The notes under the pieces: generated by a model
What the model was told of the DNA's origin: nothing
Databases searched by the model: none
What the model saw: only the letters and a program-made list of their open reading frames with translations
DNA from: an uncultured Roseobacter sp.
Lineage (GTDB): Bacteria > Pseudomonadota > Alphaproteobacteria > Rhodobacterales > Rhodobacteraceae
Assembly (NCBI RefSeq): GCF_947493125.1
Contig: NZ_CANLQB010000007.1
Coordinates: 248,001-312,000, forward strand
Direction of reading: 5' to 3'
Length of the DNA: 64,000 bases
Program-made: the position numbers and the translations under genes
Shown here: positions 2,083 to 32,151 of the stretch, piece after piece
Position numbering within the stretch: position 1 is the stretch's first letter
Layout: the number at the start of each line of letters is the position of its first letter

Positions 2083-4851
2083 CTAGAGCTCGCGCACCGT
2101 CCGCCGCTCAACCGGGGTGAAGTCGCGCCCGACCATCCGGCGCACCCGCGCCACCCAGCTTTCGGGCCGGAAATCCAGCACAAGCAGGCCGCCCGCCGCA
2201 TCATCCATCGCCAGCTCCGAGCCATCGGGCGCAAAACACAGGCCGATCCCGGCATCTCTCGTCCCCAGCGGCGGGATCGTGGCGATTTGCGTGCCGTCGC
2301 TGGCATCATAGAGCACGAAGCTTCCGCCATAGTCTCCCTTTGCCGCGATGAAATAGGCGTCCGGATCAATCGCAACGCGCCAGATGGCGCCGAGGCCACT
2401 GCCATAGGCCGAGAGCCTCTCAATCGCCTCGGCGTCCCAGATCTCGAAGCCTTCGGACCCAAACACCAGCAGACGCGTCCCGGCCTGGGTGAAACGCACC
2501 TGGGCAATCTCCAGCGCGGTCTCGGCGCGGTGCTCATGGACGAAGTGACCCTGCTCAGACCGAAAGAGATCCACGCCCCCACGCTCGCGCGGCACCGCCA
2601 CCCGCTTGGTTGCGGCGCAATAGTCCAGACCGGCCAGATCGGCGTCGTCCTCCAGGCCGAGCGTGGCCCACTGCCCCAGCGGAACAAGCGCGCCCCGCTC
2701 CGCATCGAAGAGCGCAAGCTCCCCCGTGGCCACGCGCCCGAGCAGCCCGCCTTCGGACCCGCGCGGCGTCACACGCGGATCGAAACGGACATCCTGCAAG
2801 GGACGCGTCGCGGCTGTGATCCTGGCCACCCGCCCATCCTCCAACACACCGAGAAGCGTCTTTCCCGCGAACTGGATGGCGGTGATCGGGGGCGCCTTGA
2901 CCAGCCGTCCGCGCCGCTGCCGCCGCTCCCAGATCAGCAGTTGGCCGTCCTCGTTGAGGCGCGCCACCCGCGACAGGTTTGACTGATAGGCCAACTGGCG
3001 GATCGGAGGGATGTCGGCCCGTCGGCTGATGGCATCGGGTACTGCGAGGTGCTGCGACAAGGCATGCTGTCTGTTCTTGGACAACAGCGCCACAGACCCA
3101 TCGGGCGCCAGCGACACATATCCCAACGGGCTCTCGGGCGGGCCGGGCTGGACGCAATTCACATACCAGCCGTGAGATCGGGGCTCGGCCTGTGCATGGA
3201 CAAGACGGTAACGCGGCCCCGCGGCCTTCTCGGCCGCGGCAAAGCGCACATGCATCTCGTCGGAGAAGGCAATCTCCTCGGCATCGCTGTGCACCGCAAG
3301 TATGTCCGGATCGATGCTCACCCGAAACCACGGCCGTGGCGCATAGTCGTCGAACCGGTCATGCCGCATCACCTGCCGCGTACGGGGGCTGATGCGGCAA
3401 TATCCCGTCCGCGTCGCAAACGGGGCCGCGCGGCCGGGATCAGTGCGCCGGAACCGGTTGCTCCGCAGATCCAGCAAAGCACTGATCGGCGGGCCGTCTG
3501 CGGGTGGTCCGCTGTCCGCAATGCCCAGACCACTGAGCAGCAGACCCCCATCCGCCATCCACCAGGCGCGCTCGACATAGGAGAAATGCGACCGGGCGCT
3601 ATAGGTCTGCGCGCCGCTCCTGAGATTTATGACCAGCAGGGTTCCCCGGCTCGACACAAACATCTCGTCATGCGCCTCGCTGGCCGCGAAGGCACTTGGG
3701 AAAAAGGGCTGCGACACGCGGTGGATTTCGACCAGCAGCTGATCCGGACGCTCCGCGTCGGCCCGCAGGAAAGACCCGTTGTCGGCTTCGATGATCAACT
3801 CCTGCGCCGGACCGACCAAGCTGATGTTCACGATGCTCACGTCCGGATCCATGACCGGTGTCTCACCGATCAGTTCCGGCGTGGCACCCAGCCTGCAGAC
3901 CCGCCGCCGGTCACGCGCCACCCCATGCACATGCGCCAGACGGCGCCCATCTGCCGAGAACGCCGCGCCATCGCGCAAGTCATATTTCGCGCCGGGCGGC
4001 GTGTAGGTCCCCACCGGCGCCAGCATCTGCATCAGTCTCGGGTGGCTCATCGCCCGCTGGCACAGCGCAATCCGCGCCTGCCGGGTCGGCGCCCGCGTCC
4101 AGGCCTCCACCCCCACCAGCCCGGCCAGATCGTGCCGTTGATCCGCGAGGATCTGGCTGCGCGCGGCCAGCGCCCGGGACTCCGCCCGCTGGCGCAGCGC
4201 GCGCTCGTGCGCCGCGCGGTCCTCGGCGGCCCGTAAGGCGGCCTCCTGCCCGGCGCGCGCCCGCTCCCCCGATGCCATCACGAAGGTCCGCACCAGTTCG
4301 CCCACCTCCGGGGCATCCTCGGGCGGCTGCAGCACGAACTGCTCCGCCTCGCTCAGAACGGCGCCGGTCAGCAACTCCTCCTCCCGCTCAGGCGCGGCCT
4401 CCCAGGCGCGGGCACGCTGCTGCAGCCGCGTGTGATACCGCAACCAACGTGGCGCGACGCGGATGCCGTCGGTCAGCCGCGCCAGATTGGCGGCGACCTC
4501 GGCCTCCGTCCGCATAGAGACATAGTTCAGCGCCCGCATCCACGTCGGCACGGCGGCGCGGTCATGATCCCTCATGACCACGATGATGATGCGCTTCTTC
4601 TGGAGCCGGGCCTGTTCGATCTCCCACAGGCACACGCGGGACGCCACGCTTGCCGCCGTCAGCGCAAAAACCACCACATGTGCCGCGTCGATCATGCCCA
4701 GCAGGCGGGCCCGCCATGGCTCACCGGGCCGGATGTCCTCGACGTCGATCAGAACATCGAAGGCACCCGTCTCCAGTTGACCCTGCAGCCTCGCCACCTG
4801 GGCCCGATCCCGGCGCGCATACGACAGGAAGATCGACAGGCGCTGCTCCAT
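2083..4851 (-). CDS. TIR domain protein with C-terminal beta-propeller (WD40-like) sensor
   Basis: 922 residues from the ATG at 4851; the longer ORF track start (4962) adds a basic, unconserved leader. Residues 1-130 are a TIR domain: RLSIFLSYARRD strand, IDVEDIRPGEPW loop, and CLWEIEQA with Glu77 in the position of the NADase glutamate. Residues about 140-270 form a helical, Arg/Ala-rich linker (QRARAWEAA, ASGERARAG) of the kind seen in proteobacterial TIR-propeller proteins. Residues about 275-922 contain repeated blade motifs such as FSADGRRLAHV, LAPDGSVALL and FAPDGSELAMDD. Known TIR domains of this type cleave NAD+ or make cyclic-ADP-ribose-like signals in anti-phage defence; the propeller would sense the trigger. 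It lies 28 bases after a broken SLATT-like gene on the same strand. Function in defence is inferred. Confidence 0.8.
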   Translation of the reverse strand: MEQRLSIFLSYARRDRAQVARLQGQLETGAFDVLIDVEDIRPGEPWRARLLGMIDAAHVVVFALTAASVASRVCLWEIEQARLQKKRIIIVVMRDHDRAAVPTWMRALNYVSMRTEAEVAANLARLTDGIRVAPRWLRYHTRLQQRARAWEAAPEREEELLTGAVLSEAEQFVLQPPEDAPEVGELVRTFVMASGERARAGQEAALRAAEDRAAHERALRQRAESRALAARSQILADQRHDLAGLVGVEAWTRAPTRQARIALCQRAMSHPRLMQMLAPVGTYTPPGAKYDLRDGAAFSADGRRLAHVHGVARDRRRVCRLGATPELIGETPVMDPDVSIVNISLVGPAQELIIEADNGSFLRADAERPDQLLVEIHRVSQPFFPSAFAASEAHDEMFVSSRGTLLVINLRSGAQTYSARSHFSYVERAWWMADGGLLLSGLGIADSGPPADGPPISALLDLRSNRFRRTDPGRAAPFATRTGYCRISPRTRQVMRHDRFDDYAPRPWFRVSIDPDILAVHSDAEEIAFSDEMHVRFAAAEKAAGPRYRLVHAQAEPRSHGWYVNCVQPGPPESPLGYVSLAPDGSVALLSKNRQHALSQHLAVPDAISRRADIPPIRQLAYQSNLSRVARLNEDGQLLIWERRQRRGRLVKAPPITAIQFAGKTLLGVLEDGRVARITAATRPLQDVRFDPRVTPRGSEGGLLGRVATGELALFDAERGALVPLGQWATLGLEDDADLAGLDYCAATKRVAVPRERGGVDLFRSEQGHFVHEHRAETALEIAQVRFTQAGTRLLVFGSEGFEIWDAEAIERLSAYGSGLGAIWRVAIDPDAYFIAAKGDYGGSFVLYDASDGTQIATIPPLGTRDAGIGLCFAPDGSELAMDDAAGGLLVLDFRPESWVARVRRMVGRDFTPVERRTVREL

Positions 4852-4879
4852 CACCGGTCGGGCCTGGGATCTCTGCCGC

Positions 4880-5807
4880 TCACCCCGGCCCGCCGCCTGC
4901 CACCGGTATCGCCGGAGCTTTGGTGGCAGTGGCCGCAAGTGCCGAAAACGCGCCCGTGTCAACCTCCAGGATAGCGATCACCTCATCGACATAACCCAGC
5001 GCGGCCTCCAGATCATGGGCCGCGGCTGCATCGGTCAGCCGCGCCCCCCTCCGCGGCCAGCGGGCTGAGCTGTTGCAGCGTCGTGTCATGCAGGGCGGCG
5101 CGCTCGCGGTCAAAGCTCATCTCGCGCCAGCTCTTCACCCCGGCCAGCAAGGCGGCTGACATCACCCCCAGAAAGGCCGCGAACACGACCAGCGCCGGGC
5201 TGCCCAGGGACCCCAGCGAGGACGCCACCACCCCAAGACCCAGCACAAGCGCCCCCACCGGCGCCAGCCGGGACGAGCGCGTGTCATGCGCCGAAGCCGC
5301 CTCGCGCAGATACGCCACCTGCCCCTGCACGAAGGCCTCCAGAACATGCTGTCCGGTCTGTTAGAAAACCGCACGGCCCTGAGCATGCGCCACCTCCAGC
5401 GCTGTGCGGTACAGCACCCCGCGATCCGCTTCCGCCTACGTGCGGTTGGCGATCCACCTGGTGGCAAAACGCGCCTCGCTCAACAGATAGGCGAAGATCG
5501 CCGCTGCACCGAGCGCCAGCGCCTGCAACACCCCCAACGGGGTCCGATAGGCGGTCGCCAGATCCTGGAACTGTCCGACAAGCCCGCCCCGCCCGGTGCT
5601 GGTGTCCGCACCTGCGCCCCCCGCCTCGAACCCAAGCAACAGCAACCCGCCCAACAGGGCCGACACCGCGGTCGCGGCGATGAACGCGCTCATGCAGCGC
5701 CGATAGGCCGCCTGGGCCTCGCGCGCCTTCGCGGCGGCATGCGCGCGGCGGGCCTGCACCTCGCGGTATTTCGGGGCAGTCTGAACGCTTTCGGGCAGAG
5801 CGGCCAT
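4880..5807 (-). pseudogene. SLATT-like membrane effector gene, broken by two stops and a frameshift
   Basis: Starting at the ATG at 5807 (good Shine-Dalgarno AGGAG 8 bases upstream), the frame encodes a helical lead (AHAAAKAREAQAAYRRC), two membrane helices (AFIAATAVSALLGGLLLLGF and LQALALGAAAIFAYLL), then WIANRT and an in-frame TAG (5436-5438). The same frame continues as AEADRGVLYRTALEVAHAQG to a TAA (5361-5363), then through two more membrane helices (VGALVLGLGVVASSLG, ALVVFAAFLGVMSAALLAG). At a run of six G near 5052 a one-base shift is needed to reach a coherent C-terminus (LTDAAAAHDLEAALGYVDEV ... PVAGGGPG) ending at 4880. The 2TM plus basic/acidic helix layout resembles SLATT predicted pore-forming effectors. 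Three lesions in one otherwise coherent protein indicate inactivation, unless readthrough and frameshifting occur. Confidence 0.6.
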
Positions 5808-6054
5808 GGGCACTTCTCCTTCAACAGGTGACCTCGCCTGACGGCCCACCGGCTCTGACCGTGCCCGCACCGCCAGCTTTGCAAATTTGCCGCGCGGCTG
5901 TCCAGTTCACCGCGCACGATCCGCATCGCCGGCCCAGCCACACCGCAACTGCGAAAACCGACCGATCCACGCGGCCAATCCCTTGTTTCCCCGCAAGACT
6001 TCCCCACATCAAAGACACGTTAGAGGCGATTGCAGCGAGGGAGGGCGTCTGCCG

Positions 6055-8447: not shown

Positions 8448-8906
8448 TCAGGCGGCCCGGTCGGAGATCTCGTTCTTAAGCGTCAGAGCGTGAAGCGTCT
8501 CAAAGATCTGTTGGCCAGTCAGCCGGGAAATATCGAAATTGGTTTGCGACCCGATCCCTCCGAAGAGCTCTGCATAGACGCGATCACTGCCGACAAAGCC
8601 CATCGACCAACTGGGAAAGGCTCTCGTCGTGATGCGGCTGGTCTCGAGGACCGTGATATGATCGTGACGCTCGTCCATCTGGATGCGCTCGAACGTCTCT
8701 TCCACGGCATCGATTGGACCTTCAAGCACCTGCCCAAAGACACCCGCATTGAAGATCAGCGCGCCGGTCACCCCGGCAGCCTCGTTGTTTCGCTGAGACG
8801 TTTTCAGGATCTCGTCAATTTCACCGGCCATCATTTCACGATTGGTGATGGCGCTTTGATAGCTGAAATAGATGACGCGCAGCAGGTCCGTATCGGCGGT
8901 GATCAT
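8448..8906 (-). CDS. Stand-alone BLUF-domain blue-light sensor
   Basis: 152 residues from the ATG at 8906, whose ATGA overlaps the TGA of the upstream GGDEF-EAL gene; a Shine-Dalgarno AAGGAG lies within that gene's last codons. The BLUF signature is complete: Tyr13 (RVIYFSYQSA), Asn41, Gln59 (GVFGQVLEG), Trp100 and Met102 (PSWSMGFVG), with the same spacing as AppA Tyr21/Asn45/Gln63/Trp104/Met106 apart from a longer first loop. BLUF domains bind FAD and change a Tyr-Gln hydrogen-bond network on blue light. The remaining 45 residues form a short cap (FGGIGSQTNFDISRLTG). No output domain is present, so the signal must pass to a partner, most simply the coupled GGDEF-EAL protein. Confidence 0.92.
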   Translation of the reverse strand: MITADTDLLRVIYFSYQSAITNREMMAGEIDEILKTSQRNNEAAGVTGALIFNAGVFGQVLEGPIDAVEETFERIQMDERHDHITVLETSRITTRAFPSWSMGFVGSDRVYAELFGGIGSQTNFDISRLTGQQIFETLHALTLKNEISDRAA

Positions 8907-10624
8907 CCTTGGTCTCCTTCTTTCGCGCATGGCGGCTGGTCCTGATCCATGGTCGGCAGCGGCGCCGTCAGGAAGGACCCGATTTCGGTCGGCTTGATCG
9001 GTCGGCCGATCAGGAAGCCCTGAATTGACGCACAGCCGTTGGCCCGGATACGCGCCAGTTGCTCAACGGTTTCGACACCTTCGGCAAGCACGTTCATGCC
9101 AAATGCCGCGCCGAGCTGCGCAACCGCCTCGACGATCTGGTGCGCGTTGTCGTCAGCGAAGGGCTCCCGCACAAAGGACTGATCGATCTTCACCTTGTCG
9201 AACGGGTATTTGCGCAGATAATTCAGCGACGAATAGCCAATGCCGAAATCGTCGAGCGAGATCCTGATCCCGAGGGATCGCAGATCGTTCATCCGCTGCA
9301 GCACGACCTCTTCCTTCTTCAGAAGCGTGGTCTCGGTGATCTCCAGTTCAAGCCGGTGCGGCGCCAGACCGGATGTCGCGAGCGCCGTGCTGACCGCGTT
9401 CACGAAACCGCTGTCCTCGAACTGCATGGACGAGACATTGACCGCCACCGCGATGTCCTCGGGCCAGGCTGACGCCGCCTTGCAGGCTTCGGCCAGAACC
9501 CAGGCCCCGATATCGATGATCAGCCCCGTGTCTTCGGCGATCCGGATGAAGTCGGACGGCAGGATCTGGCCCATGTCCGGATGGTTCCAGCGGATCAGGG
9601 CCTCAAACCCGGTGACCCGGTGCTCCTGAAAATCCACCTGCGGCTGGAAGACGATCTCGAACTGCTGCAGGAGGAGCGCCTTGCGCAGATCCATTTCAAT
9701 GTCGCGCCGCCGCTCCAACTCGGCAAACATCTCGTCTTTGAACCAGCTGAACTGGTTGCGGCCGGACCGTTTGCTCTCGTAAAGCGCGATATCGGCTCTC
9801 TGCAGCAGTTTCTCCGGATCACGCTCCTCCGGCCGCCGCGCCGCCAAGCCGATGCTCACGCCGATTGTCAGCTGGTGACCGTCGATCAGGAAGGGCCTGC
9901 TGACCATCTTGATGATGCGTGCGGCAATATCTTCGGCGCAGGACAGCGGGTTGTCGGCCAGCAGAATGGCAAACTCGTCGCCACCAACCCGGGCAACGAC
10001 GTCTTCCCGCCGGATCGCCCTCTTCAGCCGCTCTGCCACTTTGCGCAGCAGACCATCCCCAACCGTATGCCCCAGGGTGTCGTTGACCTGCTTGAAGTGG
10101 TCCAGATCGAGAAACAGCGCAACGACGCCGTCCCTCTCTCCCTGGTCTTCCCGGACCATCTGCTCAAAGCAGGTCTTGAGATATTTCCTGTTGCCCAACC
10201 CCGTGAGCTCGTCCGCTTCGAACTGCGGCGCGGCCCCCTGAGACTGGCCTTGCGCATTGCCCGCAATGCCGATCCATCCTCCCGCCGGGTTGGGCGACCA
10301 GGCAATGTCGGCCCGCATCTGCGACGTCTCCGCAGCCACGGCAGGGACATCGCACGCGGGCGGCCGGGCCTCCGCCGGGAGCGAACAGGCCTTGAACACC
10401 TCAGGATAGTGGCGCCCCAGAACGGCGTCGGGGTCCGTCTCCGCCGCACTCACCGCGCTCAGGAACGCGTCATTGACAAAGGACACGGCACAGGTCGCCG
10501 AAATCGCGACGACCCCGACGTCCACATTGCGCAGCCCCATGAGAATATCCGCCGGATCCCCCATCAGGGGCGATCCGATAGGGGGCGAATTCAGATCATC
10601 CGCGGCATGGTGGTGCTGCGCCAA
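8903..10624 (-). CDS. PAS-like/GGDEF/EAL cyclic-di-GMP enzyme
   Basis: 573 residues from a TTG start with a strong AAGGAG 6-8 bases upstream. Residues about 25-90 are a PAS-like sensor (NVDVGVVAISATCAVSFVND). The GGDEF domain (about 140-300) has an intact VARVGGDEFAILLAD active site preceded by RRED five residues earlier, the RxxD inhibitory site for c-di-GMP. The EAL domain (about 320-560) has GFEALIRWNHP, AVNVSSMQFED, LDDFGIGYSSLNYL and KIDQSFV, so the metal and catalytic positions look intact. It could therefore both make and degrade c-di-GMP. Its stop overlaps the start of a BLUF gene by four bases, suggesting that the two products are made together and that light controls the enzyme in trans. 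Confidence 0.93.
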   Translation of the reverse strand: MAQHHHAADDLNSPPIGSPLMGDPADILMGLRNVDVGVVAISATCAVSFVNDAFLSAVSAAETDPDAVLGRHYPEVFKACSLPAEARPPACDVPAVAAETSQMRADIAWSPNPAGGWIGIAGNAQGQSQGAAPQFEADELTGLGNRKYLKTCFEQMVREDQGERDGVVALFLDLDHFKQVNDTLGHTVGDGLLRKVAERLKRAIRREDVVARVGGDEFAILLADNPLSCAEDIAARIIKMVSRPFLIDGHQLTIGVSIGLAARRPEERDPEKLLQRADIALYESKRSGRNQFSWFKDEMFAELERRRDIEMDLRKALLLQQFEIVFQPQVDFQEHRVTGFEALIRWNHPDMGQILPSDFIRIAEDTGLIIDIGAWVLAEACKAASAWPEDIAVAVNVSSMQFEDSGFVNAVSTALATSGLAPHRLELEITETTLLKKEEVVLQRMNDLRSLGIRISLDDFGIGYSSLNYLRKYPFDKVKIDQSFVREPFADDNAHQIVEAVAQLGAAFGMNVLAEGVETVEQLARIRANGCASIQGFLIGRPIKPTEIGSFLTAPLPTMDQDQPPCAKEGDQG

Positions 10625-10924
10625 CGTCCATCTCCTTCAAAACTGGGCACTGTCCTACCACTGCCTTGGTGTAGGATTCGTTTAAAGGCACAGGCATGAA
10701 ACCTTGTATTCAAACGATCTTTCTTAAAACTGTCGCGCCTTTGCCCACAGCCCCATGCCTGGAGCAGATCCCCAGACGGCCGGGCACACACCCAAGGTCA
10801 GAGCCCGATCTGCACCTCGCAGAGCGCCACCCCACCCCGGCCCGGTTGCTGGCGGGATGAGAACCGAGATGGCTTTTTGTGTCGCGATCTGGCAGATTTG
10901 CAGCATTCTTTTTGGATCTTGAGC
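10625..10924. other. Divergent intergenic region between GGDEF-EAL gene and unknown cassette
   Basis: 300 bases between divergent starts. It holds an imperfect inverted repeat (annotated separately at 10653-10676) near the GGDEF-EAL start and a T/A-richer patch at 10865-10920 that could carry the promoter of the rightward cassette. I could not assign -35/-10 boxes with confidence. Confidence 0.4.
10653..10676. promoter_or_regulatory. Inverted repeat upstream of GGDEF-EAL gene
   Basis: TCCTAC and GTAGGA arms are separated by 12 bases, 29 bases before the TTG start of the GGDEF-EAL gene. The inner part can pair a little further (ACC/GGT). It could be an operator or a leader hairpin. There is no independent support. 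Confidence 0.25.
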
Positions 10925-11734
10925 ATGTCGAATTCAAGCAGAGCCCTGCGGCAGGTCGTGTCGCTCGATGGCTGGATCGCCACATTTGACGCAGACGACA
11001 CCGCAACCGTGCATGCCGATGTGGTTTTCCGCGAAGGCCGGTTCGGCGCCGAGCAGGACGACAAGGTGCGCTTCCGCCTGTCGCTCAGGCGGGCTGAAAT
11101 CGTGGTGATCGCGCCCGACACCGAACCCCTGCGCGTGATCCGTTCATCCGTGGAACGCACCCCCGCCCGCGAAGAGCAGACCCGGCTGGTCACCCATCAG
11201 ACCACGGCGCAAGCCCATGGCAAGGCGGGGCTGTCCCTCTCCAGCGCTCTGACCCCCGGGGCCGACCTCGCCCTCGGGGCCGAAGCGCATCGCTCGCTGA
11301 CCACGCGGCAGGAGTTGACCGAGAAGGTCGCCGGGCACGTCGAACAGCATTTCACGACCCTCGAAGGGCACCCGGCGTGGGAGGTGCGCGCCATCGGTCG
11401 CGACTGTCTGGACGGCTCCCCCTGGGACGCGGCCGGCGCCCCGCGGCTCAAGGTCAAGAGGCAGGCCGAGCGCAACGCCGACGGCGACAAGCCGACGATG
11501 CGCTTCGAGATGCGCTGCCGGCGGGAAGACATCGAGATCTCCGACCTCGAACTCAAGGACCCGGAAAAACAGGGCTGGTTCGCCCGACGCTCCAACCGCG
11601 ATGTCAACCTCGCCGCCGCCGAGCAGGTGATCAAGGAAGAGCTGCTGTCGGCGGGCTTCCTGCAGGTCGCCGATCTGAACGAAAAACATGCGGATGTCGT
11701 CATCGCCGATGTCATCGTCTCCGAGGACTGGTAG
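10925..11734 (+). CDS. Unknown protein, first gene of a two-gene cassette
   Basis: 269 residues from the ATG at 10925 (MSNSSRALRQVVSLDGW), chosen because the upstream extension is unlike the rest. I recognise no family. The N-terminal 75 residues look beta-rich (DGWIATFDADDTATVHADVV, RFRLSLRRAEIVVIAP). The middle has a Gly/Ala/Leu-rich stretch (LSLSSALTPGADLALGAEA), and the C-terminal part is charged with DIEISDLELKDPEKQGWFA and a final DVVIADVIVSEDW. There is no signal peptide or membrane helix, so it is probably cytoplasmic. Its stop overlaps the GTG start of the next gene by one base, so the two are surely co-expressed and probably interact. Confidence 0.7.
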   Translation: MSNSSRALRQVVSLDGWIATFDADDTATVHADVVFREGRFGAEQDDKVRFRLSLRRAEIVVIAPDTEPLRVIRSSVERTPAREEQTRLVTHQTTAQAHGKAGLSLSSALTPGADLALGAEAHRSLTTRQELTEKVAGHVEQHFTTLEGHPAWEVRAIGRDCLDGSPWDAAGAPRLKVKRQAERNADGDKPTMRFEMRCRREDIEISDLELKDPEKQGWFARRSNRDVNLAAAEQVIKEELLSAGFLQVADLNEKHADVVIADVIVSEDW

Positions 11735-13665
11735 TGCCCGGCTGGCAGGAGAAGGTCGTGCAGGTGATGCTCGCCGAGACCTCCGATCTGCGGGCGCTGG
11801 CGCGCATGGTCGGGCACGATCCGACTACCTTCTGGCGCGATGCAAACTTCCGGCAGGCAGATCTGTCAGGCCAGGATCTCAGTGGGCTGGATATCTCCGC
11901 CGCGATCCTCCCGCCAACCGCGCAGGCGGCCTCTGAGCCCGCGCCTGGCAGCCCGAATCTCGCGGACAACCCCAAAGCGGTGGCCCATGACCACCTGGTT
12001 CGCGGACTGAAAGCCTTGGACCGCGTCCTCGCAGATTGGCCACACTACGAAGCGCCTCTCGCCAACGCGCTTGCGGCGTTCAGACTTGCCGTCGACGCCC
12101 ATCAGTCGCTCTCCGAGACCGCCGGGGAGGCCGAGGCCCGCTACAGATTGGCCGAAGCCCTGCTGCTGCGTGCCTATGCCTCCGCCGACCACGTCAAGGA
12201 TGCCATCGACACCGCGGAATACGAGTTGCGCCACGCCAAAACGTTGCGGGAAGCCTCGGATGACACCGACCGACTGGCGCGGTATCATGACGCGCAGGGC
12301 ATGGCGCTGCGCCTCAAATCGCGGACGCAAGAGGACGTCGCGGCAATAGACACCCTCACCCGCGCGCAAACCTGTTTCGACGCCATGACCGAGCATGAGG
12401 CATCGGCGCGGTCTGAGATCCGCAAGATGGGCGTCTTTCGCGAAATCTTCCTCCGGGGTGGAACCACCAACAGCGCCGACCACGCGATCCTCAGCGTTCA
12501 CATCAAAGAGCTGGAGCGGATCTGGTCGCCGGTGACTGGTCCCGTCCCCGCAGCCATCGCCGCAGCGGCGCAGATCGAACACAGCGCCCATCGTCTCACC
12601 CTGGCCCAGATGACCCGCCAACCGCTCGGCACCAAGGCGCGCGAGGACATCCGCGACACGCTCATCACGGCCATGCGGTCCGCGTCCTACCTCGACTGGA
12701 TCGAAGCGCAGCGCTGCCTGACCGACCTCGACGCGCTGCAACAGGCCCCGGATCCGCCCCCCGCAGACGCGGACGCATCCCCGACGCTGGACGCCGCCCG
12801 CACCGAGGCGCTGAGCCGCGCGCAGGCCCGGCTGGCCGAGGGTGACGCCCACCTGCGCGCGCTCATCTCCGCCCCCGATCTCGATTTCACACAGCTTGAC
12901 CCTGCGCTTGATTGCTACGCCGACGCCGAAGACCTCTATGGCCTCCTTGAAGATGTCGCGCTGATCGAGGGCGAGCCAGGCCGGGCCTATGCCATCCTGC
13001 GGCGCGGCATGGCGCATCTGCTGAAAACAACAGATGACGCGCTGACCGGCCAAGCCCAGGCCGAGGCCTGCACCGACGCCCGCTTTGCCATGGATCTGGC
13101 GGCGGCCAGCCTCGCCGGGCGCAGCGATGTGCCGCTCGCCCTGGCCGAAGCGCTCGACGCGCAGGCCTTCGGTCTGCGGATCGAGGCCCATGTCTCCACC
13201 TCCGCCGCAGCTGTCGACGCCTTGGCGGAAGCCGCAGCCCTGCACCGCCGGGCCAGTGGCGTCGAAGGCCTGCCGCGCGCGGTGAGCTATCGCTATCGCA
13301 CCCACGCCTTCGGCGCGGAGCGGGAGCTGGAAGAGCGCCGGTCCGCCGACCCGGCCACGCTCCAGGCCAGCCGCCTGCGCGCGCAAAAGGCGCTGCAGAC
13401 CAGCGACAGCAGACGCACCGACCGGACCAGCGCCGCTGAGGAAGCGGCGTATATGGCGATGCTCGCCGAATACGCGATGTCCGTCACCGCCGAACTGAAG
13501 CTTGCCGCGCCCGCAGATGTCAAAGAGCAGCGCGCGCAGAGCAAGGAGACGACCGATCAGACCCTGCAAGAGGCGATGGCGCTGGCCGCCACGCTCTTCA
13601 TGCCGCTCGACTGGATGCTGCTGCATCGCACACGGGCACAGCTGCGCAGGCTCGACGCGCACTAG
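11734..13665 (+). CDS. Unknown helical-repeat protein with N-terminal pentapeptide-like segment
   Basis: 643 residues from a GTG that shares its first base with the preceding stop; GAGG lies about 8 bases upstream. Residues about 12-55 read DLRALARMVGHDPTTFWRDA then NFRQADLSGQDLSGLDIS, an A(D/N)L-type pentapeptide-like run. The rest is long Ala/Glu/Arg-rich helices (SETAGEAEARYRLAEALLL, AEDLYGLLEDVALIEGEPG, GRAYAILRRGMAHLLK) resembling a TPR/SEL1-like solenoid, but I could not fix repeat borders. No catalytic motif, membrane helix or signal peptide is seen. Such solenoids usually bind proteins, so this may be a scaffold or sensor for the preceding gene product. Function unknown. Confidence 0.7.
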   Translation: MPGWQEKVVQVMLAETSDLRALARMVGHDPTTFWRDANFRQADLSGQDLSGLDISAAILPPTAQAASEPAPGSPNLADNPKAVAHDHLVRGLKALDRVLADWPHYEAPLANALAAFRLAVDAHQSLSETAGEAEARYRLAEALLLRAYASADHVKDAIDTAEYELRHAKTLREASDDTDRLARYHDAQGMALRLKSRTQEDVAAIDTLTRAQTCFDAMTEHEASARSEIRKMGVFREIFLRGGTTNSADHAILSVHIKELERIWSPVTGPVPAAIAAAAQIEHSAHRLTLAQMTRQPLGTKAREDIRDTLITAMRSASYLDWIEAQRCLTDLDALQQAPDPPPADADASPTLDAARTEALSRAQARLAEGDAHLRALISAPDLDFTQLDPALDCYADAEDLYGLLEDVALIEGEPGRAYAILRRGMAHLLKTTDDALTGQAQAEACTDARFAMDLAAASLAGRSDVPLALAEALDAQAFGLRIEAHVSTSAAAVDALAEAAALHRRASGVEGLPRAVSYRYRTHAFGAERELEERRSADPATLQASRLRAQKALQTSDSRRTDRTSAAEEAAYMAMLAEYAMSVTAELKLAAPADVKEQRAQSKETTDQTLQEAMALAATLFMPLDWMLLHRTRAQLRRLDAH

Positions 13666-13708: not shown

Positions 13709-14458
13709 CTACAAGGGCGTCGCAAAGGACCTCGAGCCGCGTCCCTCTTGCGCACGCCGCCGGTCCTCCTCCGCAATCGCGGCATCGAGCGGCGCCCGGT
13801 CCGTCAGACCCGAGAAATCATCGCGGCGCGGCATCACATGCGCCACATGCAGGAAACGCTCCTGCGCCACATCGTAAAGACGGCGCAGCTCCGGCAAGGG
13901 ATCCGCGTGATCATCGGCGCGCAGATCAAGCCAGGGATAATCCTCGCCGCGGTGGATGCGCAGCGCCGCGGACTGCTTGCCGCGCTTGTCTCCGCCCGCA
14001 AGCTCTCCGGCCTCCATGGCCGTCAGCAGACGCTCCGCAAAGGGAAGGTCAGCCGCCGACTGATACGCCGCCAGCGTCTCGACGATCACCGCCTCTCCGG
14101 CCAGCATGTTCCCGGCGACCGACACGTCCTCGCCGGAGACATGCCCGCACCAGTCTATGCAGTCCTCACCGGTGTGCGCGGCGATGTCACCTGCCGCATC
14201 GATCATATGCGCCTGCCGCTGCGCCTCTCCGCCGTCCCGCGCGACCAGATCGGCCAGAACAGCGGAAGCCGCTTCGCCCACGGCCATCCGATCTGCCGCC
14301 TCGATGCCCCAGAGCGGGTTCACGAAGGCCTGCGTTGCAACGGCGCATCTGCCGCCGCGAATATGCGGCACCAGGGCGCCCACGGCAAAAAACCGGGAGG
14401 CCACGGCAATCCCCAGATCACCAGTTGACGGGTCGCGCGCAACAATCGAATAGGTCAT
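13709..14458 (-). CDS. DUF1028 family protein (Ntn-hydrolase-like)
   Basis: 249 residues, beginning MTYSIVARDPSTGDLGIAVA and GALVPHIRGGRCAVATQAFVNP, the typical N-terminal sequence of DUF1028 proteins, which are suspected Ntn-fold hydrolases of unknown substrate. The start has a good AAGAGGAG Shine-Dalgarno. It is the last gene of the leftward peptide operon, 13 bases after the gamma-glutamyltransferase-like gene. That context suggests action on amide or peptide bonds of the imported compound. It has no signal peptide and is probably cytoplasmic. Confidence 0.88.
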   Translation of the reverse strand: MTYSIVARDPSTGDLGIAVASRFFAVGALVPHIRGGRCAVATQAFVNPLWGIEAADRMAVGEAASAVLADLVARDGGEAQRQAHMIDAAGDIAAHTGEDCIDWCGHVSGEDVSVAGNMLAGEAVIVETLAAYQSAADLPFAERLLTAMEAGELAGGDKRGKQSAALRIHRGEDYPWLDLRADDHADPLPELRRLYDVAQERFLHVAHVMPRRDDFSGLTDRAPLDAAIAEEDRRRAQEGRGSRSFATPL

Positions 14459-29734: not shown

Positions 29735-30511
29735 TCAGGCCGGGGGTTTACTTGCATATAAGGCGATGGCCGCCGCATTCGAGACGTTGAGCGAGCCAAA
29801 TCCGCTCCTCGCGTCGATCCGCACCAGCGCATCCACGGTCTCCTTGGTCTTGGCGCGCAGGCCCGGACCCTCGGCGCCAAGCACGAGCGCCACGGGCCTG
29901 TCCCGCTTGCCCTCCAGGGCTGCTTCGATGGTCTGATCGGCCTCGCCGTCGAGGCCCAGAACCACATACCCCATACGCTGCAATTCGGTGATGGCGTCAG
30001 CGAGGTTGCGCACGCGCAGATAGGGCTGCCGCTCCAGCGCACCACTGGCCGTTTTCGCCAACGCGCCGGTCTCCGGCGCCGAGTGATGCCGGGTACCAAT
30101 CACAGCCGAGGCACCCAGCACCTCTGCCGAGCGGAGGATTGCGCCCACGTTATGTGGATCGGTCACCCGGTCCAGCATCACCACGCGCGGCGCCGCGGGC
30201 CCGATACAGACCTGCTCCAGAGACCCCCAATCCAGCGGCTTGACCTCCAGAGCCGCGCCCTGATGCACCGAGCCGGGATCAAGCGGTGCGGAGAATTTTC
30301 GCGGATCGACCACCTCAGGCGTGATCCCACTCTCAAAAATGGCCTCGGCGAGCTTGGCCTGCGCGTTCAACGTCACCACAAGCCGCAGCTTTCGCCGCGC
30401 GGGGTTCAGCAGCGCATCGCGCACCGCATACAGGCCGAAGAGCCAGACAGTCTCCCGTCCCTGCGCCTTCTTCTCCTGCTCTTTCTGCACAACCCACTTG
30501 GGTTTTTTCAT
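29735..30511 (-). CDS. rlmB: 23S rRNA 2'-O-ribose methyltransferase, SpoU/TrmH family (RlmB-like)
   Basis: 258 residues from the ATG at 30511 (MKKPKWVVQKEQEKKAQGRE); the longer track start at 30589 lacks family sequence. The N-terminal substrate domain has WLFGLYAVRDALLNPARRK. The SPOUT knot motifs are present: VMLDRVTDPHNVGAILRSAE, PVALVLGAEGPGLR and FGSLNVSNAAAIALYAS. RlmB modifies a guanosine in the 23S rRNA peptidyl transferase region. TrmH relatives cannot be fully excluded. The tRNA-Tyr is divergent upstream. Confidence 0.9.
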   Translation of the reverse strand: MKKPKWVVQKEQEKKAQGRETVWLFGLYAVRDALLNPARRKLRLVVTLNAQAKLAEAIFESGITPEVVDPRKFSAPLDPGSVHQGAALEVKPLDWGSLEQVCIGPAAPRVVMLDRVTDPHNVGAILRSAEVLGASAVIGTRHHSAPETGALAKTASGALERQPYLRVRNLADAITELQRMGYVVLGLDGEADQTIEAALEGKRDRPVALVLGAEGPGLRAKTKETVDALVRIDARSGFGSLNVSNAAAIALYASKPPA

Positions 30512-30623
30512 CACGCCCGCCCCATGGTTGGCCCCGTCGAAAAAGGCGGTGATTTCGCCTTGACGCTTCTCAGCACCGCTTGTAATCACGCCTTCACCGC
30601 GGGTGCAACTGACCTCGCGGCGT

Positions 30624-30707
30624 GGGCGACAGGCCGCAAGGTGTGGCAGGGGACTGTAACTCCCTCGCGGAGACGCACGCCTGGTTCGATTCCAGGGTCG
30701 CCCACCA
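30624..30707 (+). tRNA. tRNA-Tyr (anticodon GUA)
   Basis: A class II tRNA with CCA encoded. Acceptor stem GGGCGAC pairs with GTCGCCC, D-stem GCCG/TGGC, anticodon stem GGGGA/TCCCT around loop CTGTAAC (anticodon GTA), a long variable arm (GCG-GAGA-CGC), and T-arm CCTGG-TTCGATT-CCAGG. The discriminator is A. Folded by hand; every stem forms. Confidence 0.93.
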
Positions 30708-30855
30708 TCTGCAAATTTCCATCACAACACCCCCCTAACAGCTTGAAAGGCGGGATCATTTCAGCGGTTCGAAGACCCTTATTTCGACCGTAGACCAAAG
30801 GCTCTGAAAAGGCCAAAGCTATCACATTCCGTATAAGGTCGAGGTTCCCTTTTTC

Positions 30856-32151
30856 TCATATTTCATAAGGGTTTGCGAGGAATCGTATGGCGTGTTCGAA
30901 CGACTTTCTGAAGGTGTCAGGTTTGGAGCCGACAAAAACGATACGCTCCTCTATCAGCCGGTTATCCTGCTCCATCATCTCGATACGTTTCTTATAGGCT
31001 CTAACCACACTGCAGCTATCGGCTTCGATTAAGCGATCAAGCAACTTGTCGATCTGTTTTTGCAGCTTTGCTGCTTCAGCCTTCAAGCTGTTGACTGCCG
31101 CACCCGACTTTGAAACCCGACCGTCCCATACATCCTTGAACATCTTCGCAGCAAGCTTGAGCAGTGCTTGACTAGGCACAAGTCGCCTTAAAACATCAGC
31201 TACCGCGCTCTCCACATCATCTCTGCGGACAGACTTTCTATGCGAAGGACACGACTTCTGTGCGCACAGGTCGTAAGGGTGCTTGACACCATTTCGACTA
31301 CGCGACCAGCAAGCCGTCATTGGCGCTCCACAATCAGCGCAACAGACAAATCCGCGAAGAGGAAAGTCTTCGTTTATGTCTTTACAACGAGGAGCCATGG
31401 CCTTTCCATCGAGGACATCCTGCACGCGGAGCCAATCCTCAAGCGAAAAAAGCGGTTCGTGGACTCCTCTTTGATCAATAATCCCCCAGTTCTTGACAGT
31501 GATCAGTCCGGTATAGAGCTTTCGTCTGAGAATGTCTGAAACAACAGACCGATGCACACCGCCGTTGGAGCAGCATCTGATATCTGAGTTCTCATCGAGA
31601 AACCGCTTCACTTCACCGATTGACCGAAATCTTTCATGTGTCATCCCTGAGAAAGCTTCGCGGACCATAGAAGCGGCTGGCTCATCCGGCACACGCATCC
31701 TCTCGTGCCCGGGAACCTTTTGATACTGATATCCTTAGACAGGTGCGAAGAGATAGTATCCTTGCTTCACCCGCGCGCTCATTTTCTGAATGACCTGACG
31801 ACGATTTTGTCTGCGCTCAAGCTCCCCCTTCGCAGCCATGATAGTCTCGATAAACTCGCCCTCTGGCGTATCCTCAAATCTGAAATTCAGACACTCGGGC
31901 GTCGCGCCCACATCGCTTAAAGTCCGTCGCAGCTTGATATGAAATTCAGTGTCACGCGAAAATCGCTTGAGATTGTCAAAAATGACCACAAAATTCTCGT
32001 CCGGCTGAGCTCGGAGGAACGCAAGCGATGCGACCATGCCCGGTCTGTCCATGAAGTCGCCACCACCCGACACATCGTCAGGAAACGTTGCCGCAACCTC
32101 ATACCCTTGGCTTGCAGCATATTCGCGACAACGGATTGCGGTCGCGGACAT
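30856..32151 (-). pseudogene. Large serine recombinase remnant (N-terminally truncated, in-frame stop)
   Basis: The frame from 32151 reads CREYAASQGYEVAATFPDDV, SGGGDFMDRPGMV, FVVIFDNLKRFSRDTEFHIK and ECLNFRFEDTPEGEFIETIM, the catalytic domain of a large serine recombinase, but lacks the first 30 or so residues with the nucleophilic serine. It stops at TAA 31735-31737 just before GYQYQKVPGHERMRVPDEPA. The same frame continues with the recombinase domain, a zinc ribbon (FVCCADCGAPMTACW, CAQKSCPSHRKS) and a coiled coil (LKAEAAKLQKQIDKLLDRLI) to 30856. The 5' end abuts the ridA-like gene. The DNA is visibly more AT-rich than its surroundings, a sign of transfer. It is almost certainly inactive. 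Confidence 0.85.

Follow-up and report, generated by a model that had tools for sequence, protein, structure and literature searches.

We describe a pair of genes in a 64,000-nucleotide stretch of DNA (the window, to which positions refer unless another locus is named) from an uncultured Roseobacter sp. (assembly GCF_947493125.1, contig NZ_CANLQB010000007.1, positions 248,001 to 312,000). Gene 1 (10925..11734, + strand) starts with ATG at 10925, stops with TAG at 11732-11734 and encodes 269 amino acids. Gene 2 (11734..13665, + strand) starts with GTG at 11734, ends at 13665 and encodes 643 amino acids. The two frames share one base (11734, + strand) in the motif TAGTG, exactly as the original prediction, made from the letters alone, had stated. 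A second genome of the genus keeps both frames (87% identity for gene 1, 58% for gene 2), so that both can be taken as real genes. The pair belongs to a paired, mobile and modular gene family that is new to the libraries we searched. Pfam, NCBIfam, PADLOC and the Protein Data Bank (PDB) name neither protein, and both do remain unrecognised as first described. In particular, Pfam, NCBIfam and PADLOC give no match for gene 1, and a PDB sequence search with its profile returns none; gene 2 has nothing of weight in NCBIfam or PADLOC and no PDB sequence match. PADLOC-DB 2.0.0 holds 0 families for either gene.

The two genes occur strictly together. We examined 20 loci on rhizobial plasmids and alphaproteobacterial chromosomes (loci are given L numbers and genomes G numbers). 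In 20 of 20, the next gene after gene 1, in the same orientation, is a gene 2 that begins with the shared N-terminal domain. The two are spaced by -8 to +9 nucleotides, except in the decayed copy of G010. The converse holds as well: four genomes found through the N-terminal domain alone all have gene 1 immediately upstream. Homologues were never found singly, and no housekeeping family was found for either window protein; neither of the outcomes named beforehand as refuting the original prediction occurred. Gene 1 is present in 3 of 59 relatives, 3 of 385 genomes of the class and 2 of 398 Rhizobiaceae, and in 4 of 399 genomes of the phylum, all four from the same class. The cassette is scattered, in about 1% of the Alphaproteobacteria sampled. 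Its hosts, isolates or metagenome-assembled genomes (MAGs), belong to Roseobacter, Rhizobium, Sinorhizobium, Erythrobacter and Acetobacteraceae. Carriage by phages was considered and rejected: no relative of gene 1 was found in viral contigs, nor in phage records (query: gene 1 of L017).

Several weak matches to the N-terminal domain (G026, G240, G126, G161) are pentapeptide or leucine-rich repeat (LRR) proteins and were excluded from the family; G026 and G240 have no gene 1. On contig C44 of G026 (L029), a TIR-like open reading frame (ORF) is followed by a pentapeptide and LRR protein whose start weakly resembles the domain, and gene 1 is absent. Such proteins possibly point to a wider family of pentapeptide-led partners.

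Tight gene order with an overlap, together with plasmid carriage, also speaks for a toxin-antitoxin or addiction pair. Gene 1 would then be the toxin and gene 2 its neutralizer, with the C-terminal part of gene 2 tuning expression, localization or stability without any sensing of phages. Gene 1 is broken in 3 of the 20 loci (L012, L035 and L038; sequencing error is possible), and in L012 and L035 gene 2 stays intact beside the broken gene 1, a pattern that favors an addiction pair. The breakage would also suit a costly effector. An addiction pair leaves unexplained the exchange of gene 2 C-termini for copies of the host proteins FtsA and Edd, described below, while only a 58-residue domain is kept, and we judge it unlikely.

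This constant domain of about 58 residues (residues 1-58; 11734..11907, + strand) includes LAETSDLRALARMVGHDPTTFWRDANFRQADLSGQDLSGLDI in the window sequence. We refer to it as the putative docking domain. In the AlphaFold2 model, residues 4-12, 19-25 and 30-33 form short helices, and pentapeptide coils come next, at approximately residues 36-57; residues 30-49 read PTTFWRDANFRQADLSGQDL. The only Pfam signal in the window gene 2 is a sub-threshold match to Pentapeptide (PF00805) at residues 36-57 (E-value 0.021; 14.8 bits against a cut-off of 20.2), while three relatives score above that cut-off (L021, 25.2; L033, 22.9; L039, 21.3). The original prediction had associated the pentapeptide run with multi-domain signalling or conflict proteins. 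By itself the run is no signalling module; it belongs to the domain shared by all gene 2 proteins. Most docking domains have a short pentapeptide run in common with pentapeptide-repeat proteins such as Qnr, MfpA and HetL. However, their coils are far too few for a DNA-mimic rod, and in the Edd-type members the coils are lost while the helical half of the domain is kept. The identities of gene 1 and of the docking domain correlate across loci (Mantel r 0.60, p 5e-5, n=15), and they still do without one close pair (0.44, p 7e-4). It is plausible that the domain physically docks on the gene 1 protein.

Behind the docking domain, gene 2 changes completely. With the first 60 residues removed, the C-termini fall into approximately 11 types without detectable mutual similarity, and they differ even where gene 1 identity is 41-52%. 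Five types are a solenoid (window, G017, G010), a TPR tail (L033, L034), an Edd plus TPR tail (L010, L013, L014, L016), a Sinorhizobium-type tail (L011, L012, L019, L020) and an FtsA tail (L017); six tails are singletons (L018, L021, L035, L036, L039, L040). A match between the L034 and L038 tails is weak (E-value 0.008), at the level expected of helical repeats, and the plasmid relatives of the Sinorhizobium-type tail turn out to be merely the same gene 2. Recombination behind the docking domain would leave both this pattern of tails and the correlation just described. The variable module of the window locus comprises residues 80-642 (11971..13659, + strand). AlphaFold2 predicts helices throughout this stretch and mainly strands in gene 1, which agrees with the contrast originally drawn between a beta-rich protein and a helical solenoid. 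The solenoid is at best weakly TPR-like, since its TPR-type Foldseek matches are weak and none reaches E<=0.001.

A Pfam search recognised no nuclease, NADase or protease domain in the approximately 11 tails. An impression of ribbon-helix-helix ends in L018, L021 and L035 was not confirmed: Pfam gives no such match for any of them, and L035 has no PDB match. The tail of L040 (8177-9013 of that locus, - strand) is very rich in acidic residues and could mimic a nucleic acid.

Effectors of secretion or contractile injection systems typically join an invariant N-terminal module to C-termini that vary, with a small constant gene beside them. On this view the docking domain would be a loading signal for such an apparatus, gene 1 a chaperone and the tails the delivered cargo. 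However, no genes for a secretion or contractile apparatus were noted beside the inspected loci, conjugation genes on a plasmid excepted, and what the tails contain is host-like proteins and repeats, not recognised toxins. We find this explanation improbable.

Two of the tail types derive from host proteins. In the Edd-type tails of Rhizobiaceae, residues ~58-211 match the C-terminal domain of the Edd/IlvD dehydratases. The Pfam domain ILV_EDD_C is above its curated cut-off in L010 (E-value 4e-13) and L016 (5e-12) and is weaker in L013 and L014. Within this superfamily the tail is closest to Edd (NCBIfam edd, E-value 8e-19): it is 37% identical over 159 amino acids to the dehydratase of R. phaseoli (L107), compared with 25-28% for the next paralogues. 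Since the C-terminal domain alone is present, the tail cannot be the whole enzyme. On plasmid pSinB (L010, 8819-10720) the gene fuses a docking domain to the C-terminal domain of Edd and to TPRs. It has been named a dihydroxy-acid dehydratase because of the Edd domain, and the name is wrong. A match to the Edd part in Microvirga has neither gene 1 nor a docking domain nearby and was set aside.

The second case is L017, from an alphaproteobacterial MAG (Umea2_bin-3006; G695), whose tail consists of the N-terminal part of FtsA (TIGR01174, E-value 2e-22). Over 408 nucleotides this tail shares 92.9% DNA identity with the MAG's own ftsA, which lies downstream of murC, murB, ddl and ftsQ (genes named from their translations). 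Of the 29 differences between the two copies, 22.5 count as silent and 6.5 as replacement changes (pN/pS 0.11 outside an identical end). Contigs C4 and C7 (L101, L102) both end in that same exact 141-nucleotide stretch of ftsA, one in the ftsA operon and the other in gene 2. Assembly would be expected to break in this way where two copies are nearly identical. That the sequences do differ outside this common stretch argues for two real copies. The rest of this gene 2 was not found in the MAG.

These tails raise the question of which gene is the effector. FtsA is plausible as a dominant-negative blocker of division. If the roles were reversed, gene 1 would be a sensor or regulator and the tails the effectors: the FtsA copy would block division, the Edd domain would poison sugar metabolism and the repeat proteins would recruit other targets. 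A constant module with variable effectors, including variable cell-division domains, has been described for bacterial conflict systems (PMC7159879). On the other hand, the Edd part lacks the rest of the enzyme, none of the enzymatic domains sought by Pfam was recognised in the tails, and it is gene 1 that is broken more often than gene 2. We consider the reversed assignment rather unlikely. In our assessment, scaffolding is a poor explanation for the FtsA and Edd copies and poisoning a moderate one; they are best read as bait for inhibitors of host proteins.

What might the constant gene do? The AlphaFold2 model of gene 1, built from eight sequences, consists mainly of beta strands and has a helix at the C terminus (predicted local distance difference test [pLDDT] 64.8; predicted template modelling score [pTM] 0.60). 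Foldseek relates this model to 52 PDB chains at E<=0.001, and the best 50 of the 52 all belong to the alpha-hemolysin/leukocidin superfamily, with nearly full-length alignments among the matches listed. Against a viral library nothing falls below 0.1. Residues 86-134 (11180..11326, + strand) have the lowest model confidence and the lowest conservation in gene 1, vary in length and are rich in G, A, S and T. This segment is placed comparably to the stem of alpha-hemolysin/leukocidin proteins, and we regard it as a candidate pore stem hairpin. It has a strand-like alternation (z ~6 in 13 sequences), and a control from the core beta region gives 8.8. Since the stem does not exceed the core, the alternation supports strands and not a membrane hairpin as such, and this control weakens the amphipathic-stem statistic as evidence for a hairpin. 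There is no sequence similarity to these toxins, no signal peptide was seen, and the conserved C-terminal helix is a further difference. The odds that this low-confidence model reflects an alpha-hemolysin/leukocidin-like fold are, in our opinion, about even.

The cassette moves as a unit. Among three genomes of the window's genus, the stretch in common runs from 10895/10906 to ~13656 only, without flanks, and we take 10895..13656 (+ strand), beyond which nothing is shared with the G017 and G010 loci, as the extent of the mobile cassette. In a further genome, G006, DNA synteny with the window (84%) begins at 13711, right behind the cassette; the cassette itself is absent and other genes stand in its place. 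Gene 1 lies on seven rhizobial plasmids, six of them conjugative, where plasmid copies are often found among TIR, SIR2, CBASS-like and ABC-3C genes. Examples are L010 (neighbours TIR, patatin and a nucleotidyltransferase), L011 and L110 (TIR, SIR2, DUF4231 and ABC-3C) and L013 (SIR2 and AAA genes). Whether the pair recurs as a mobile cassette in defence islands had been posed as a check on the original prediction. Recurrence, mobility, strict pairing and the plasmid neighbours speak for it; the positions of most chromosomal copies do not.

On chromosomes, the gene immediately upstream of the cassette, in the same orientation, is mostly a housekeeping gene: gatB (L033, L034), lepA (L035), accC (L036, where the cassette sits between accC and aat), purH (L040) or nrdB (L018). 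Perhaps these copies use the transcription of the upstream genes. Such positions, and the resemblance of two tails to FtsA and Edd, would suit an accessory scaffold of housekeeping metabolism or division that is carried along with these operons. The very patchy distribution given above, the varying sites, the plasmids and the broken copies speak against a scaffold, which seems to us an improbable explanation.

We favor the reading, to which we assign a probability of roughly 0.45, that the pair is a small mobile conflict cassette, most likely abortive and probably directed against phages, in which the constant gene 1 is the effector and gene 2 combines a holder with a swappable sensor. The observations behind it are the strict pairing, the constant and variable parts, the co-diversification of gene 1 and docking domain, the host-derived modules and the mobility, from which we infer physical docking, pore formation, sensing and defence. 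A defence role as such is likely. In outline, gene 2 would hold gene 1 through the docking domain, and its replaceable C-terminal module would sense attack. The host-copy modules (FtsA, Edd) would serve as bait for an invader's inhibitor, and the ligand of the window's TPR-like solenoid would be a protein or a peptide. Once bound, the module would set gene 1 free or let it assemble, and gene 1, having no signal peptide, would injure the membrane of its own cell from within, in the manner of a beta-pore former. The original prediction of a sensor plus effector fits this constant and variable design, with the roles probably distributed as gene 1 effector and gene 2 docking plus swappable sensor. 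It is tempting, though distinctly speculative, to go one step further and see an integrated-decoy immune cassette, in which the partner of a constant, cytosolic beta-pore former keeps hold of it and displays an exchangeable host-protein bait, so that an invader's attack on the host target would lead to self-destruction.

Several observations weigh against the conflict reading. Confidence in the gene 1 model is low (pLDDT 65, pTM 0.60), and the model superposes poorly on leukocidin-type chains (template modelling [TM] score 0.2-0.28, root-mean-square deviation 12-23 A). For eight gene 1 members, Pfam matches up to an E-value of 10 include no pore-former family, and the alternation in the stem segment is significant yet no stronger than in the gene 1 core. 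The window solenoid has no known host counterpart, and most tail types have no recognised identity. The FtsA case comes from one MAG, on a contig that ends inside the gene. Finally, the placement of most chromosomal copies behind housekeeping genes is not that of a defence island.

How does the cassette compare with known systems? Among the NTP-dependent (nucleoside triphosphate) modular conflict systems (the VMAP ternary and related systems), the variable parts include pentapeptide, TPR and cell-division domains (MinD/ParA, FtsK, FtsZ; several predicted inactive) (PMC7159879). Systems of this kind with effector-associated domains (EADs), like the cassette, combine a constant module with modules that vary rapidly between relatives (PMC7159879). 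In contrast, the cassette has two genes only, and in its FtsA and Edd modules it carries copied host proteins. Domain searches of gene 1 and gene 2 show no NTPase (MoxR, GTPase, STAND), vWA, protease, VMAP/EAD partner or known adaptor domain. Bacterial gasdermins offer an analogy only, that of a cytosolic pore former kept in check and then released on infection. Gene 1 has no gasdermin match in Pfam and is unrelated in sequence, no adjacent protease was found, and the check would come from a separate partner gene rather than from a C-terminal inhibitory tail.

Other forms of guard- or decoy-like sensing are established in bacteria, namely PARIS (AriA/AriB) and Panoptes, which are likewise small and in which the invader's inhibitor is the trigger through a decoy-like sensor (PMC12409349). 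Unlike these, the cassette has no ATPase, nuclease or nucleotide signal, and its proposed bait is a copy of a host protein. The closer analogy in this respect is with plant nucleotide-binding leucine-rich repeat (NLR) receptors with integrated decoys, where an immune receptor is fused to a copy of the host target as bait; the cassette is bacterial, has two genes and lacks an NLR core. In our searches of the open literature, outside which most subscription papers lie, we met no description of the gene 1/gene 2 pair, of a hemolysin-like defence effector or of bacterial host-protein decoys. Even the plain result, a constant gene and docking domain with approximately 11 swapped tails, amounts to a new modular family and accounts for the misannotation on pSinB. 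If the favored reading is true, a family nameless in the libraries searched uses copies of host proteins as replaceable sensors, and its constant gene is a hemolysin-like effector working inside bacteria. Each bait would then name the host target that invaders attack, and the tails would be a readable list of attacked host proteins in Alphaproteobacteria, with the division protein FtsA and the Entner-Doudoroff enzyme Edd as entries.

The window neighbours of the cassette encode BLUF, GGDEF-EAL, DUF1028, gamma-glutamyltranspeptidase, TIR and DUF4231/SLATT-like proteins. The BLUF (8448-8930) and GGDEF-EAL (8903-10624) genes, both on the - strand, overlap and travel as a unit. In G006 this pair lies on another contig (75% DNA identity) without the cassette. 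Because of this, and because the synteny of G006 starts behind the cassette, we rejected a functional link to the cassette and treat these neighbours as a separate unit. Both the BLUF/GGDEF-EAL pair and the TIR gene are present as first described, but the latter is ~6 kb away. The TIR protein (2083-4962, - strand; TIR_2, E-value 3e-20) has a propeller-like C-terminal half (THOC3 propeller, 5e-5) and is followed by small DUF4231/SLATT-like membrane ORFs (5013-5870, - strand); together they are a candidate for a separate conflict system. Farther along the window, at 30001-32000, the G+C content falls to 0.55 beside a tRNA-Tyr gene (30624-30707), and an integrated element at this position is possible.
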